This document shows positions 1,111-35,289 of a stretch of DNA of 64,000 bases, piece after piece. Position numbers and translations under genes: made by a program. Numbering within the stretch: the first letter of the stretch is position 1; every line of letters begins with the position of its first letter. Source of the DNA: Labilibaculum manganireducens (GTDB lineage: Bacteria > Bacteroidota > Bacteroidia > Bacteroidales > Marinifilaceae); the NCBI RefSeq assembly GCF_002843385.1, contig NZ_MVDE01000006.1:62001-126000 (forward strand), written 5' to 3'. The notes below the pieces were generated by a model. It was not told where the DNA came from and made no database searches. It saw only the letters and a program-made list of their open reading frames with translations.

Positions 1111-1205
1111 ATGAAACGTCCAAGCCAAGGTGATTTTTACACACAGAGGGATGATTATTCCAGCATGGTAAGTTCCATATAGCAACTAAAACAAATTATA
1201 ATTAT
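1111..1205 (+). repeat. 119-bp dispersed element, copy 1 (lacks the hairpin)
   Basis: It begins ATGAAACGTCC and ends directly before the ATGAAA start codon of the next gene (1206). It matches the other copies (5571, 13800, 13919 and minus-strand 35289) but is 24 bp shorter. The missing part is the TCCCGAAACAAGTTCGGGA stem-loop and its CAGGCT flank. Confidence 0.85.
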
Positions 1206-2081
1206 ATGAAACAACAATCGTTTATATATGCAACAATATTGCTTGCAGCTGTTTTTTTTAGCAGTTGTGACAAGAAATTTGAGGTTTTTGAAGATACAGT
1301 GGATGGAAATGATCTTCCAACTAATGTTGAGTCTGTTACTTCGGAGGCATTGCCGGGGCAAATTTTGTTAAAATGGGATGTTCCTTTGGATTCCAATTAT
1401 TATTATCTTCAGATGAGTTATTATGATCATTTAACTGAGAAAAAGGTATTTGAAGTGATATCTGTTTATGCTGATTCGATATTAATTGATAATACAAGAG
1501 CTAAATATGGAGATTATGAATTTGCATTTCAGGCGTTTAATAAAAACGGACAAGGAAGTGGCAAAATAAATGTAATGGCTAAATCTGGTATTGCTCCAGC
1601 AACAGAAACCATTACAGCTACTAAAATAGAGTTGGAAGCATCTCAGTTGAGTACGAATAACCAAGAGCCAAAAGAAGGGCCTATTGCCAATTTAATTGAC
1701 GGCAATTCAAGTTCTTTTTTTCATACTCGATGGAGTTCTCCGCAGATACCAATGCCACAGTACATTCAGATTGATCTGAATGAACCTATTGACGATTTTC
1801 AGTTTTATTTGGTGAACAGGGAATGGTCTCAGCAGGCGCCAAAAATAGTAGAGATACAAATTAGTAATGACGGAGTTAACTGGGAAACTGTTAAAACTAT
1901 TTCTTCAGGATTACCTTCTGCAGGAGGTGCTGATTATACTTCCGAAATTTTTAGACCTGGTCGTACGTTCTCTCATTTTAGATTTAATTGTTTAGAAACT
2001 TTCGATAATAGAAATTATTTTAATTTAGCGGAATTTGTATTGTATGATGTCGATATTGATACATACGATCCTGAGTTGTAG
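1206..2081 (+). CDS. SusE-position lipoprotein with F5/8 type C (CBM32-like) domain
   Basis: The 291-residue protein starts with a lipoprotein signal peptide; the FFSSC lipobox is near residue 22. Residues about 40-125 look like a fibronectin/DUF4998-type beta-sandwich (PGQILLKWDVPLDSNYYYLQ). Residues about 135-285 resemble a discoidin/F5-8 type C carbohydrate-binding domain (NLIDGNSSSFFHTRWSS, PQYIQIDLNEPIDDFQFYL, VEIQISNDGVNWE, FRFNCLETFD). It follows susD by 128 bp, the place where SusE/SusF-type surface glycan-binding proteins are usually encoded. Inference: it captures polysaccharide at the cell surface. The gap from susD contains a repeat element that ends exactly at this start codon, which fixes the start. 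A strong terminator follows, so this is probably the last gene of a susCD-E transcript. Confidence 0.8.
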   Translation: MKQQSFIYATILLAAVFFSSCDKKFEVFEDTVDGNDLPTNVESVTSEALPGQILLKWDVPLDSNYYYLQMSYYDHLTEKKVFEVISVYADSILIDNTRAKYGDYEFAFQAFNKNGQGSGKINVMAKSGIAPATETITATKIELEASQLSTNNQEPKEGPIANLIDGNSSSFFHTRWSSPQIPMPQYIQIDLNEPIDDFQFYLVNREWSQQAPKIVEIQISNDGVNWETVKTISSGLPSAGGADYTSEIFRPGRTFSHFRFNCLETFDNRNYFNLAEFVLYDVDIDTYDPEL

Positions 2082-2098
2082 TTAAAATTTGTATTATC

Positions 2099-2137
2099 AG
2101 CCTACTGCTATATTAATTTATAGCAGTAGGCTTTTTA
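2099..2137 (+). terminator. Rho-independent terminator after SusE-like gene
   Basis: A perfect 14-bp stem (AGCCTACTGCTATA / TATAGCAGTAGGCT) with a 6-nt loop is followed by a run of five T. It lies 18 bp after the stop codon and separates the susD-E transcript from the GH2 gene. Confidence 0.92.
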
Positions 2138-2335
2138 TATGGAACGTTGGATTGTTTTTTGAATTCACTGTTTTAAACTGATTATGGATTCTGTTGGTGA
2201 AAAGAAAGAATCTTAAGTAATGTTTTGTTAAAAAAAATATGTATATATTGATGGTTTTGCTCTTTCCTAAAAAACGAGAATGAGTTAGGTGCGGAAAGAT
2301 GTTTAGGTGTGTTTTGAAGATTTAATAAAATAATA

Positions 2336-33539: not shown

Positions 33540-33580
33540 AAAAGCGATTCATATTTAAGTATGAATCGCTTTTGTTATTT
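33540..33580 (+). terminator. Strong terminator after HTCS gene
   Basis: A perfect stem AAAAGCGATTCATA / TATGAATCGCTTTT with a short loop is followed by a T-rich tail. It lies between convergent genes and could serve both directions. Confidence 0.88.
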
Positions 33581-33598
33581 ATCTGTGTTTTTGTTTTA

Positions 33599-33759
33599 TA
33601 CCAATTTAATTTCAAAATAGACTTTAATTAAAATGAATTAATTTTTAGCTGTATCGAGGCAAAAAAGTAAAGCATAGCCACGTTACGATGCATCTTTTTT
33701 AACGAAGATATAGCTGAAAAGAAACATTTTATAAGGCATGTTTTGATGTTAATTTGGTA
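33599..33759 (+). mobile_element. MITE-like element, copy A
   Basis: It is 161 bp with imperfect terminal inverted repeats TACCAATTTAATTTCAAAA and TTTTGATGTTAATTTGGTA. It is about 90% identical to the element at 59350 and shares its ends with the one at 42214. It encodes nothing. It abuts the stop codon of the M64 peptidase gene (33760). Confidence 0.75.
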
Positions 33760-35169
33760 CTACTTCGTGTTCTGATCGATAATCAGCTTAATAGCCCGTT
33801 GACAAGCCGGACAAAATTTATCGTGACGGGTAAACATGATACAGTTGGGAGCGCTTCGGTATAAGCCTGTTGACTTGTATTGAGCTCCTTCAAAAGCACC
33901 AACTTTACCGCTGTATTTCATATTTGCTAAAAGCTCATCATCCCACGATCTTTGTTTCATAAAGAAATCTTCCATTATTTTTTCATCAACCTTTGCTTTT
34001 CTTAGCTCAACTCTCTTTTTCTGAACAGCAATACTGTGTTCATCGTACTTCTCCTTTTCCCAGGGAGTTGGTATTGGAGTGTCTGGTGTTACAATATCCT
34101 TCCATTTTATAGTTTCAGGATTTGCATTCGCAGTTACATTTAATTCCCAAGGTTCCAAATGCTTGGCATCCATTTCGTAAGCTGTTGCAGATGTGTAGTA
34201 TTCGTCAGCCAAATCAGCAAAATGGTGTCCGAATTCATGTACAAATAAATATTCCTGAAAAGCATTGTCAACAGCAGCTGTGATATACAAGTTGTAGATA
34301 CCGCCACCGCCATAAATAGAATCATTCATTAAAATAGCTGTAAATTCGTAAGGAACTGCAGCCGCCGCATTGCGAATTGTTTTGTTGTCGAAACCTAAAG
34401 CGTATCGTTCCGAATCGAAAGCCCCGTAAGTAACCGAAAGTGCCGAACGTTTATGAATATCCTGATGAGGATGATTTACTCCTGAATCGGGAGATGGTGT
34501 TTCCACAGCTCTGATCGAAAATTTATCCTTAAAGGAAGCATAAGGCTCTGTACTTAAAAGAACTTCCGCAAAACGTTGTGCGTCCTTTTTAAATTTACCC
34601 ATATCTTTCTTGGCGTATCCTTCTCCCAAAACTACAATGTCAACTTGATTTTCAGGCTTACCATTCACAACAATATCAATCGTATTATAGTGATTTTTTA
34701 CTGGGCTGGAAAAAGAACGGTAATGCTTTAGATTTACTTTATAGGTCCATACAGGATCAAAACCATTATTAATATTGCGTTTAAATACAGTGATATCCAC
34801 TTCATTTTTCGGCCATGGAAAACGAAGGGATTCCTGAAAACTTCCCCATTCGGTTTTTGCCTCGGGTGTAGTTTCCCATTCGCCGTAGATGCTTGCAAAT
34901 CCTCGGGAGTAAAGTAAATTTCCTGTTTTAGAATCTTTTACTTCGAAACAATATTTCCCCAGATTTAGTTCGTCGATTAGCATGGTTTTACTGCCAGGCC
35001 ACTCACCATCATTTACCATCTGATCGAAAGCGAAGTGTTCTTCTCCTGAATTTCCTACATGATTATAATCCAGGCGCATAGCAGCACTCGTAAAATAATC
35101 AGCATATTGAGCCATTGATGAAAAGGAGATACCAATTAGCATAAGGGTAAATACAAAAATCTTTTTCAT
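33760..35169 (-). CDS. M64 family (IgA-peptidase type) metallopeptidase, secreted
   Basis: From the Met at 35169 the protein is 469 residues with a signal peptide (FVFTLMLIGISFSSMAQ). The N-terminal part is the family's beta-sandwich (DYFTSAAMRLDYNHVGNSGE). The peptidase domain contains VDIVVLGEGYAKKDMGKF and the zinc site HEFGHHFADLADEYY (His311, Glu312, His315), followed near the C-terminus by CIMFTRHDKFCPACQRAI. This matches the M64 family common in Bacteroidota. The open frame continues 66 codons upstream through the repeat element to 35367. I reject that extension because the signal peptide begins exactly at the element's edge. The gene is divergent from DUF554 and ends against a MITE. 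Confidence 0.9.
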   Translation of the reverse strand: MKKIFVFTLMLIGISFSSMAQYADYFTSAAMRLDYNHVGNSGEEHFAFDQMVNDGEWPGSKTMLIDELNLGKYCFEVKDSKTGNLLYSRGFASIYGEWETTPEAKTEWGSFQESLRFPWPKNEVDITVFKRNINNGFDPVWTYKVNLKHYRSFSSPVKNHYNTIDIVVNGKPENQVDIVVLGEGYAKKDMGKFKKDAQRFAEVLLSTEPYASFKDKFSIRAVETPSPDSGVNHPHQDIHKRSALSVTYGAFDSERYALGFDNKTIRNAAAAVPYEFTAILMNDSIYGGGGIYNLYITAAVDNAFQEYLFVHEFGHHFADLADEYYTSATAYEMDAKHLEPWELNVTANANPETIKWKDIVTPDTPIPTPWEKEKYDEHSIAVQKKRVELRKAKVDEKIMEDFFMKQRSWDDELLANMKYSGKVGAFEGAQYKSTGLYRSAPNCIMFTRHDKFCPACQRAIKLIIDQNTK

Positions 35170-35289
35170 GTGTATAAATTTGTTTTTTAGTTGCCATATA
35201 GCTTGTTCCGAACTTGTTTCGGGAGAACTTACCATGTTGGAATAATCATCCTCCTGTGTGTCAAAATCACTTTGGCATGGACGTTTCAT
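35170..35289 (-). repeat. 119-bp dispersed element, copy 5 (120 bp)
   Basis: On the minus strand it begins ATGAAACGTCC at 35289 and ends one base before the ATGAAA start codon at 35169. The hairpin is TCCCGAAACAAGTTCGGAA, with one stem base changed relative to the other copies. Confidence 0.9.

Follow-up and report, generated by a model that had tools for sequence, protein, structure and literature searches.

A short guide-bearing element, probably mobile, at ATGAAA start codons in Labilibaculum and other bacterial genera

In a stretch of 64,000 nucleotides from Labilibaculum manganireducens (RefSeq assembly GCF_002843385.1, contig NZ_MVDE01000006.1, positions 62,001 to 126,000 of the forward strand), hereafter the window, five copies of a short repeat stand directly before the hexamer ATGAAA, which in three cases is the start of a gene. 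The repeat has precise junctions, empty sites in related genomes, a guide and hairpins that covary, head-to-tail arrays and a wide spread across genomes. We consider it rather probable that it is a non-autonomous, site-specific mobile element that bears a guide and is moved as single-stranded DNA by a Y1 transposase acting in trans. What appears to be new here is the guide, CATNNN, which covaries with the 3' junction; the literature searched, of which we had a partial view, yielded no description of a start-codon-specific element.

A guide that matches its own 3' junction

The guide lies 20-24 bases 5' of the junction NNNATG and is the reverse complement of it. The observed guide/end pairs are CATATG/CATATG, CATCTG/CAGATG, CATGTG/CACATG, CATATA/TATATG and CATCTT/AAGATG, and a distant genome (locus L264) has the guide CATACG with the end CGTATG. 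If C or T is allowed as the first guide base, the fit is exact in 183 of the 232 copies from the genus (CATATG ends 146/158, CAGATG 20/31, CACATG 11/19, TATATG 5/11, AAGATG 1/1, others 0/12). Among distinct genus copies, 173 of 222 fit their own 3' end, compared with a mean of 113 and a maximum of 128 over 500 trials with re-dealt ends; for the 74 copies with ends other than CATATG, 37 fit, against a re-dealt mean of 12.8 and maximum of 20, relatedness being ignored in both comparisons. The exact guide is kept in internal copies of arrays (43/55) as in terminal ones (140/177). A scan for guide-end pairs outside the known copies returned six sites, all without the rest of the element.

The same relation is seen at the level of the helix, where pairing was counted on structures that we had named ourselves. 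In 70 diverse copies of the genus, the 6-bp guide helix is 93.8% paired, with one of its pairs occurring as A-U in 30, C-G in 18 and G-C in 6 copies, and none of 500 shuffles reached the covariation of the whole tested structure. In 61 distinct copies from other genera and families the helix is 97.8% paired and the inner hairpin covaries as well, in an alignment that was fitted to the model structure and leans towards it. As judged from these alignments, guide and 3' junction covary. Pairing in the short hairpin next to the guide reaches 85%, but covariation there is not above that of shuffles. In most short copies, read by eye and uncounted, the complementarity appears to extend to GTTYCATNNN against NNNATGAAA, so that the pairing would cover the target hexamer as well.

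The left end of the element pairs with the same guide region as the 3' junction does. For 59 of 62 copies from other genera and families, the mean duplex energy between the left end and the bases preceding the guide is -7.54, against -4.82 (standard deviation 0.28) for re-dealt partners, and for 48 of the 70 genus copies it is -7.45 against -6.24, with 0/2000 re-dealings reaching the observed value in either set; the omitted copies (3 and 22) are those in which the guide finder failed, and most of the 22 are long forms. Minimum-energy folds contain a left hairpin and a second hairpin formed by the guide and the start codon. When folded as RNA, four of eight copies are clearly better than their shuffles (z from -2.93 to -7.24) and the other four are not (-0.47, 0.83, -1.40 and -0.80). 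RNAalifold returned no structure for the first gapped alignment, and Rfam gave no match at its gathering thresholds in the window, nor any at E values up to 1 in six loci surrounding diverse copies.

Insertion at start codons

To place copies relative to genes, a profile of the copies was run over the window, over stretches of at most 20 kb around copies in the window genome (G000; 5.32 Mb in 97 contigs) and in G004, and over 40 named loci. It gave 250 hits in 192 units, each a single copy or a head-to-tail array: 120 hits in 94 units in G000, 57 in 51 in G004 and 73 in 47 in the named loci. Some known G000 copies lie outside these stretches, and copies at orthologous loci of different species were counted separately and are not independent. 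As the junction we took the [AG]TGA closest to its expected position, a string that favours ATGA starts; a few copies end at ATGC.

Such a junction is present in 180 of the 192 units, and in 151 of them it opens at least 60 codons (by set 73/88, 40/47 and 38/45). Thus 151/192 units adjoin an open reading frame of that length, as against 6 of the 254 ATGAAA that lie between genes and outside copies in the stretches from G000, and copies do not lie at random with respect to starts. In the same stretches, with genes called by the length of their reading frames alone, ATGAAA outside copies also occurs at 141 first starts, at 75 places near a start and inside genes 1088 times on the same strand and 557 times on the opposite strand. 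The junction hexamer is ATGAAA in 124 of 135 cases in G000 and G004, compared with 250 of 1271 untargeted gene starts, and this hexamer is the element's apparent target.

It is about an even question whether anything beyond the hexamer is recognised: the enzyme could be blind to starts, and the excess of start codons could arise by selection that removes other insertions. Most of the specificity is accounted for by ATGAAA (124/135), 41 of the 192 units do not stand at 60-codon frames, and one of the six empty sites described below opens 18 codons only. Against this, starts are still preferred over intergenic places when the hexamer is the same, with odds of 5.7 in G000 (p 5e-11) and 7.0 in G004 (p 2e-7), where copies not adjoining 60 codons were entered as intergenic, genes were called by reading-frame length and upstream context was not included. 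Specificity for the hexamer alone is compatible with the mobile, guide-bearing element that we favour.

The preliminary description of the window had proposed a dispersed element that inserts precisely at ATGAAA starts and brings a new leader, and the start-codon counts, together with the orthologous empty sites, support this. It had also noted that the adjoining genes encode secreted proteins or lipoproteins. The impression is explained by targets that start with ATGAAA, and a preference is not seen: by a simple heuristic, a signal or lipobox is predicted for 67 of 113 targeted genes and for 150 of 250 untargeted genes that begin with ATGAAA. A preference for secreted proteins was therefore rejected.

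Empty sites and repeated targeting

When the flanks of copies were compared with the stretches from other genomes, 14 comparisons left a gap of at most 40 bases, of which nine are clean and five are poorly aligned at the junction. The clean ones represent empty sites at six orthologous places, each with the same flank, one ATGAAA and the gene, so the single intact hexamer foreseen for loci without the element is indeed there. By locus, these places are:

L087/L171: empty-site place; five junction-adjacent bases differ
L091 and L096/L216: empty-site place
L097 and L124/L209: empty-site place
L097 minus and L209 minus/L124: empty-site place
L147/L069: empty-site place
L188/L154: empty-site place

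Five of these empty sites have an ATG that begins a frame of 153-375 codons and is preceded within 30 bases by an in-frame stop, one of the five also having a TTG upstream; at the remaining place the frame is 18 codons long. At other orthologous genes the species carry different subfamilies or copy numbers (e.g. L135/L196 and L059/L088), which suggests that the same starts were repeatedly targeted or that copies were exchanged. These genome comparisons argue that the element has been mobile.

In 27 orthologous pairs in which both loci are occupied, the element is less alike than the upstream 100 bases in 14, equally alike in two and more alike in 11, and many of these 11 compare an array with a single copy. 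In 18 single-copy pairs with few changes, guide positions have 0.09-0.13 mismatches per site and the average is 0.146. The copies thus give no consistent sign of conservation beyond that of their flanks. We read this as selfish, tolerated insertion, with a useful role possible in some genes.

Copies in the window and forms of the element

All five copies given in the preliminary description are present, with lengths of 95, 119, 119, 119 and 120 bp. A 25-base core, searched with at most three mismatches, has five matches in the window and a maximum of 0 over 100 shuffles. The copies and their adjoining genes are:

1111-1205, plus strand: copy 1, short form, 95 bp
1176-1181, plus strand: guide CATATA of copy 1, complementary to TATATG at 1203-1208
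1203-1208, plus strand: 3' junction TATATG of copy 1, the element's last triplet and the start codon
1206-2081, plus strand: gene adjoining copy 1 by its start codon (Pfam: DUF4959 and F5/8 type C)
5571-5689, plus strand: copy 2, long form, 119 bp
5636-5654, plus strand: long-form hairpin module of copy 2, by sequence and by the predicted fold of a similar copy
5690-6856, plus strand: gene adjoining copy 2 by its start codon (Pfam: glycosyl hydrolase 88)
13800-13918, plus strand: copy 3, long form, 119 bp, first of a head-to-tail pair
13919-14037, plus strand: copy 4, long form, 119 bp, second member of the pair; the ATGAAA after it starts a frame of just 9 codons
35170-35289, minus strand: copy 5, long form, 120 bp
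33760-35169, minus strand: gene adjoining copy 5 by its start codon (Pfam: peptidase M64)

Copies 1, 2 and 5 end directly at the ATG of the reading frames 1206-2081, 5690-6856 and 35169-33760, and copies 3 and 4 are joined head to tail as first described, the pair ending at an ATGAAA that opens just 9 codons. Copy 5 has an open frame from its left end that is in frame with the M64 gene (33760-35367, minus strand), giving an open reading frame of 535 amino acids instead of 469. Gene callers could misplace starts where the left ATG opens a decoy frame in this manner. A conserved small protein read from the left ATG was rejected, with copy lengths divided 89, 82 and 61 over the remainders modulo 3 and a frame that runs open and in phase to the ATG at the 3' end in 7 of 232 copies.

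The short unit is about 95-97 bp, and the absence of the hairpin module from copy 1, which had been singled out earlier, is the common condition of this form in many other copies. The long unit is about 110-120 bp and has the module (TCCCGAAACAAGTTCGGGA or TCCCGAAAGCTTTCGGGA) immediately 5' of the guide. The module was considered as a free-standing repeat and rejected: in 1.26 Mb of own-genome stretches chosen around copies, its 17-base core occurs 43 times within copies and twice outside the drawn borders, and these two look like parts of degenerate copies. The long form's module is matched exactly over 27 bp at locus L050, in a genome (G043) from another family of the order. Arrays may combine subfamilies (e.g. 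L067 and L084), and hence are not slipped duplications only.

The edges had been interpreted as a target duplication of ATATGAAA, which is not borne out. The bases 5' of the left ATG vary among copies, so that the shared edge motif is ATGAA(A) rather than ATATGAAA. In addition, at 14 junctions from three data sets whose right hexamer is not ATGAAA (mostly ATGAAT or ATGAAG), the left edge is TGAAA in 14/14. Since the left TGAAA persists where the gene does not start with ATGAAA, a duplication of up to about 5 bp is possible at most, and the edge is best seen, more simply, as a left motif that belongs to the element and a right motif that is the target.

Spread across genomes and viruses

The left end ATGAAACGTCCATG, with at most one mismatch, occurs 107 times in the window genome, 53 times in G004 and 56 times in G007, and the reversed control occurs 0, 0 and 1 times. 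A model of the element matches 26 of the 56 family genomes at E values up to 1e-3. Across the order, which we take to be Bacteroidales, it matches 52 of 295 genomes, representing 39 of 184 genera, at E values up to 1e-5; the copy counts per genome from this model are minimum values. For 31 copies of other genera of the family, taken from among the matches listed, the 3' ATG begins a frame of 60 codons or more in 26 (some frames leave the locus), with a guide fit in at least 22 of the 31. Frames of at least 60 codons likewise follow 7 of 12 copies in G306 and 8 of 8 in G154 (15/20 together). Seven of the 12 copies fetched from G306 are letter-identical and have different right neighbours, a sign of recent movement. 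The copies at loci L245, L247 and L048 (G017 and G028, of a different genus) are 97-98% identical to the window unit over their first 65 bp; no other copy observed in another genus comes as close to it.

Copies at ATGAAA starts are also present on three viral contigs from IMG/VR (L385, L386 and L387). The gene targeted in L387 probably encodes a tail protein; genes for tail sheath and head closure lie upstream of it and one for the tape measure follows, and a copy within a tail operon suggests that the downstream gene is still translated. The target genes on these contigs lie in apparent late operons. Viral contigs may be a route between hosts. Of four viral pattern scans, one returned the three contigs and the other three none, and one window copy used as a query found nothing at E 1e-3 in plasmid and phage collections.

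Proposed mechanism, mobilising enzyme and alternatives

In the mechanism that we favour, an element of about 95-130 bp would insert directly 5' of ATGAAA, always in one orientation, and would thereby land at start codons. The guide, (GTTY)CATNNN, is complementary to NNNATG(AAA), of which ATGAAA comes from the gene as its start and NNN is the triplet that closes the element, and we infer that the guide chooses the target. The left end, ATGAAAC, repeats the target motif and pairs with the same guide region, forming a stem around the inner hairpin and a conserved loop. The A/T-rich 3' tail would become the new region before the start codon, and by replacing that region would make the insertion tolerated; translation of the downstream gene would probably continue. 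Renewed insertion at the element's own motif would build the head-to-tail arrays. The anatomy of the element suggests movement as single-stranded DNA by a Y1 (HUH) transposase in trans, as in IS200/IS605.

Y1 genes are present in 24 of the 26 element-bearing genomes of the family, compared with 7 of the 30 others, and across the order in 43/52 compared with 150/243 (odds 3.0, p 0.004); IS110, used as a control, gives 15/52 and 43/243 (odds 1.9, p 0.08), the overlaps in both order-wide counts being hand-counted with kinship ignored. Y1 was not accepted as a proven mobiliser, since the association within the family is strong but follows kinship and that across the order is modest beside the control. 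An autonomous version of the element was not found in loci around Y1 genes. In G006 a copy stands before a gene for 204 amino acids about 830 bp from a Y1 gene (L105), and the like gene in G007 (L238) starts ATGAGAAAA with no copy visible. Several Y1 (RAYT-like) genes adjoin palindromes of their own (L219-L238, L288-L306 and L357), e.g. GGGCTAAAGCCC in L357 and CGCCCCTTTGGGGC in L237, so that separate repeat systems seem to coexist.

A number of observations weigh against this mechanism. An exact guide match is absent from 49 of the 232 genus copies, a guide of its own for the left end was not seen in the copies, and the pairing of the guide is also compatible with a messenger RNA hairpin over the start codon. 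No 60-codon frame stands at the junction in 41 of the 192 units (12 without [AG]TGA and 29 with short frames), and in 11 of the 27 orthologous pairs the element is more alike than the flank upstream of it. A model scan of 88 loci around a subset of the listed Y1 hits found no Y1 gene between element ends: the copies near Y1 genes, three clear (L105, L293 and L361) and one weak (L364), lie at other genes' starts, at distances of about 350-950 bp, and the remaining matches are weak or chance-like. The order-wide association with Y1 is little above that with IS110, and Y1 hits are missing from 9 of the 52 element-bearing genomes in the order and 2 of the 26 in the family. Moreover, orientation relative to local GC skew has no clear bias (84/113 targeted and 165/250 untargeted genes).

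One may argue that the same mobile element moves by another route, through an RNA-level or reverse-transcription step or by another recombinase. The conserved fold would then belong to an RNA, and the guide would act either on RNA or on DNA that transcription has opened. We regard this as a less likely alternative, perhaps one chance in a few. The covarying hairpins and guide could form in RNA too, the four of eight copies that fold clearly better than shuffles do so as RNA, none of the examined Y1 genes has the element's ends, and some element-bearing genomes have no Y1 hit. However, no reverse transcriptase or other enzyme is linked to the element, none having been tested for, and the order of target, spacer, guide and hairpin matches the single-strand DNA plan described for IS608 (PMC5934647).

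It is improbable that the repeat is instead a regulatory leader of the messenger RNA, in which translation is controlled by a hairpin that the guide forms over the start codon, and whose copies are retained for regulation while movement is old or rare. In its favour are predicted folds in which the guide pairs with the start codon, the retention of this pairing in some old, diverged copies (L091, L096 and L216), the slightly slower change of the guide in the 18 pairs (0.09-0.13 vs 0.146) and the 11 of 27 pairs with higher element than flank identity, many of them array against single copy; this is outweighed by precise empty sites in related genomes, subfamilies or copy numbers that differ at the same gene, letter-identical copies before unrelated genes, internal array copies that pair as often although away from a gene (43/55 vs 140/177) and the lack of a match in Rfam.

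Movement as single-stranded DNA by a Y1 enzyme in trans is the explanation we favour, and we rate the repeat as a miniature guide-bearing single-strand element of a new variety, with a real chance of being a class of its own. Such a class, previously undescribed, would have the translation start as its target, read through a built-in complementary guide; it would bring its own initiation region, acquire new targets when guide and end change in a compensatory way, and be moved by an enzyme so far tied to no guide-bearing element. We hold this fuller claim tentatively, as the smaller part of the odds. An insertion exactly at start codons can give many genes a new leader without breaking them, which is at once a strategy of harmless insertion and a natural route for altering translation. 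Furthermore, guide-target covariation makes target choice by pairing testable and could yield a compact, re-addressable insertion tool, and the element family is broad within a large bacterial order.

Comparison with known systems

The element is small, dispersed and non-autonomous like MITEs, and unlike them it has no terminal inverted repeats, its edges carrying a direct repeat of ATGAA(A) with no clear target duplication. Non-autonomous derivatives are also known from the IS200/IS605 family as PATEs.

TAACTGA direct repeats, found sporadically in Beggiatoaceae and some Bacteroidetes, stand directly before start codons (PMC4679880), a position and a sporadic distribution that they share with the element. 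They differ in being tandem 7-bp units, for which the part of the paper available describes no guide, inserted ATG or empty-site comparison (PMC4679880).

REP sequences and REPINs are short, hairpin-forming and multicopy, and are thought to be mobilised by Y1 enzymes in trans (PMC3116915, PMC8266576). The element has the same three properties, and Y1 genes are present in 43 of its 52 genomes. REPs are tagged by GTAG or CGTC and, for the most part, follow genes on their downstream side (PMC3733652), whereas the element, in contrast to REP/RAYT systems, lies at start codons in a single orientation, has a variable left end and does not flank the Y1 genes examined. Repeats with the CGTC tag occur in Bacteroidetes, likewise without a known transposase, and have a stem of 8-9 bp and head-to-head dimers (PMC3733652). 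The left end in Labilibaculum holds CGTC, but this is not conserved in the family, where ACATCC, ACGAGC and others take its place, and the published stem and head-to-head dimers do not fit the element.

In IS200/IS605, guides 5' of hairpins pair with the cleavage sites, and in IS608 the guide lies 5' of a subterminal hairpin and insertion occurs 3' of a tetranucleotide (PMC5934647, PMC8266576). The element departs from this family in that no transposase with its ends was found among the examined Y1 loci, in a pairing of at least 6 bp that runs across the junction, in a single guide region that may pair with both ends and in a target that is the start-codon hexamer. It shares with the family a fixed short motif, the absence of a long duplication, precise empty sites and hairpins near the ends. 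On the complementary strand, the order is the target TTTCAT, three bases, a spacer and the guide at the foot of a hairpin, with a hairpin and then TTTCAT at the far end. As described for IS608 (PMC5934647), the guide stands at a hairpin foot and is complementary to the target or cleavage site.

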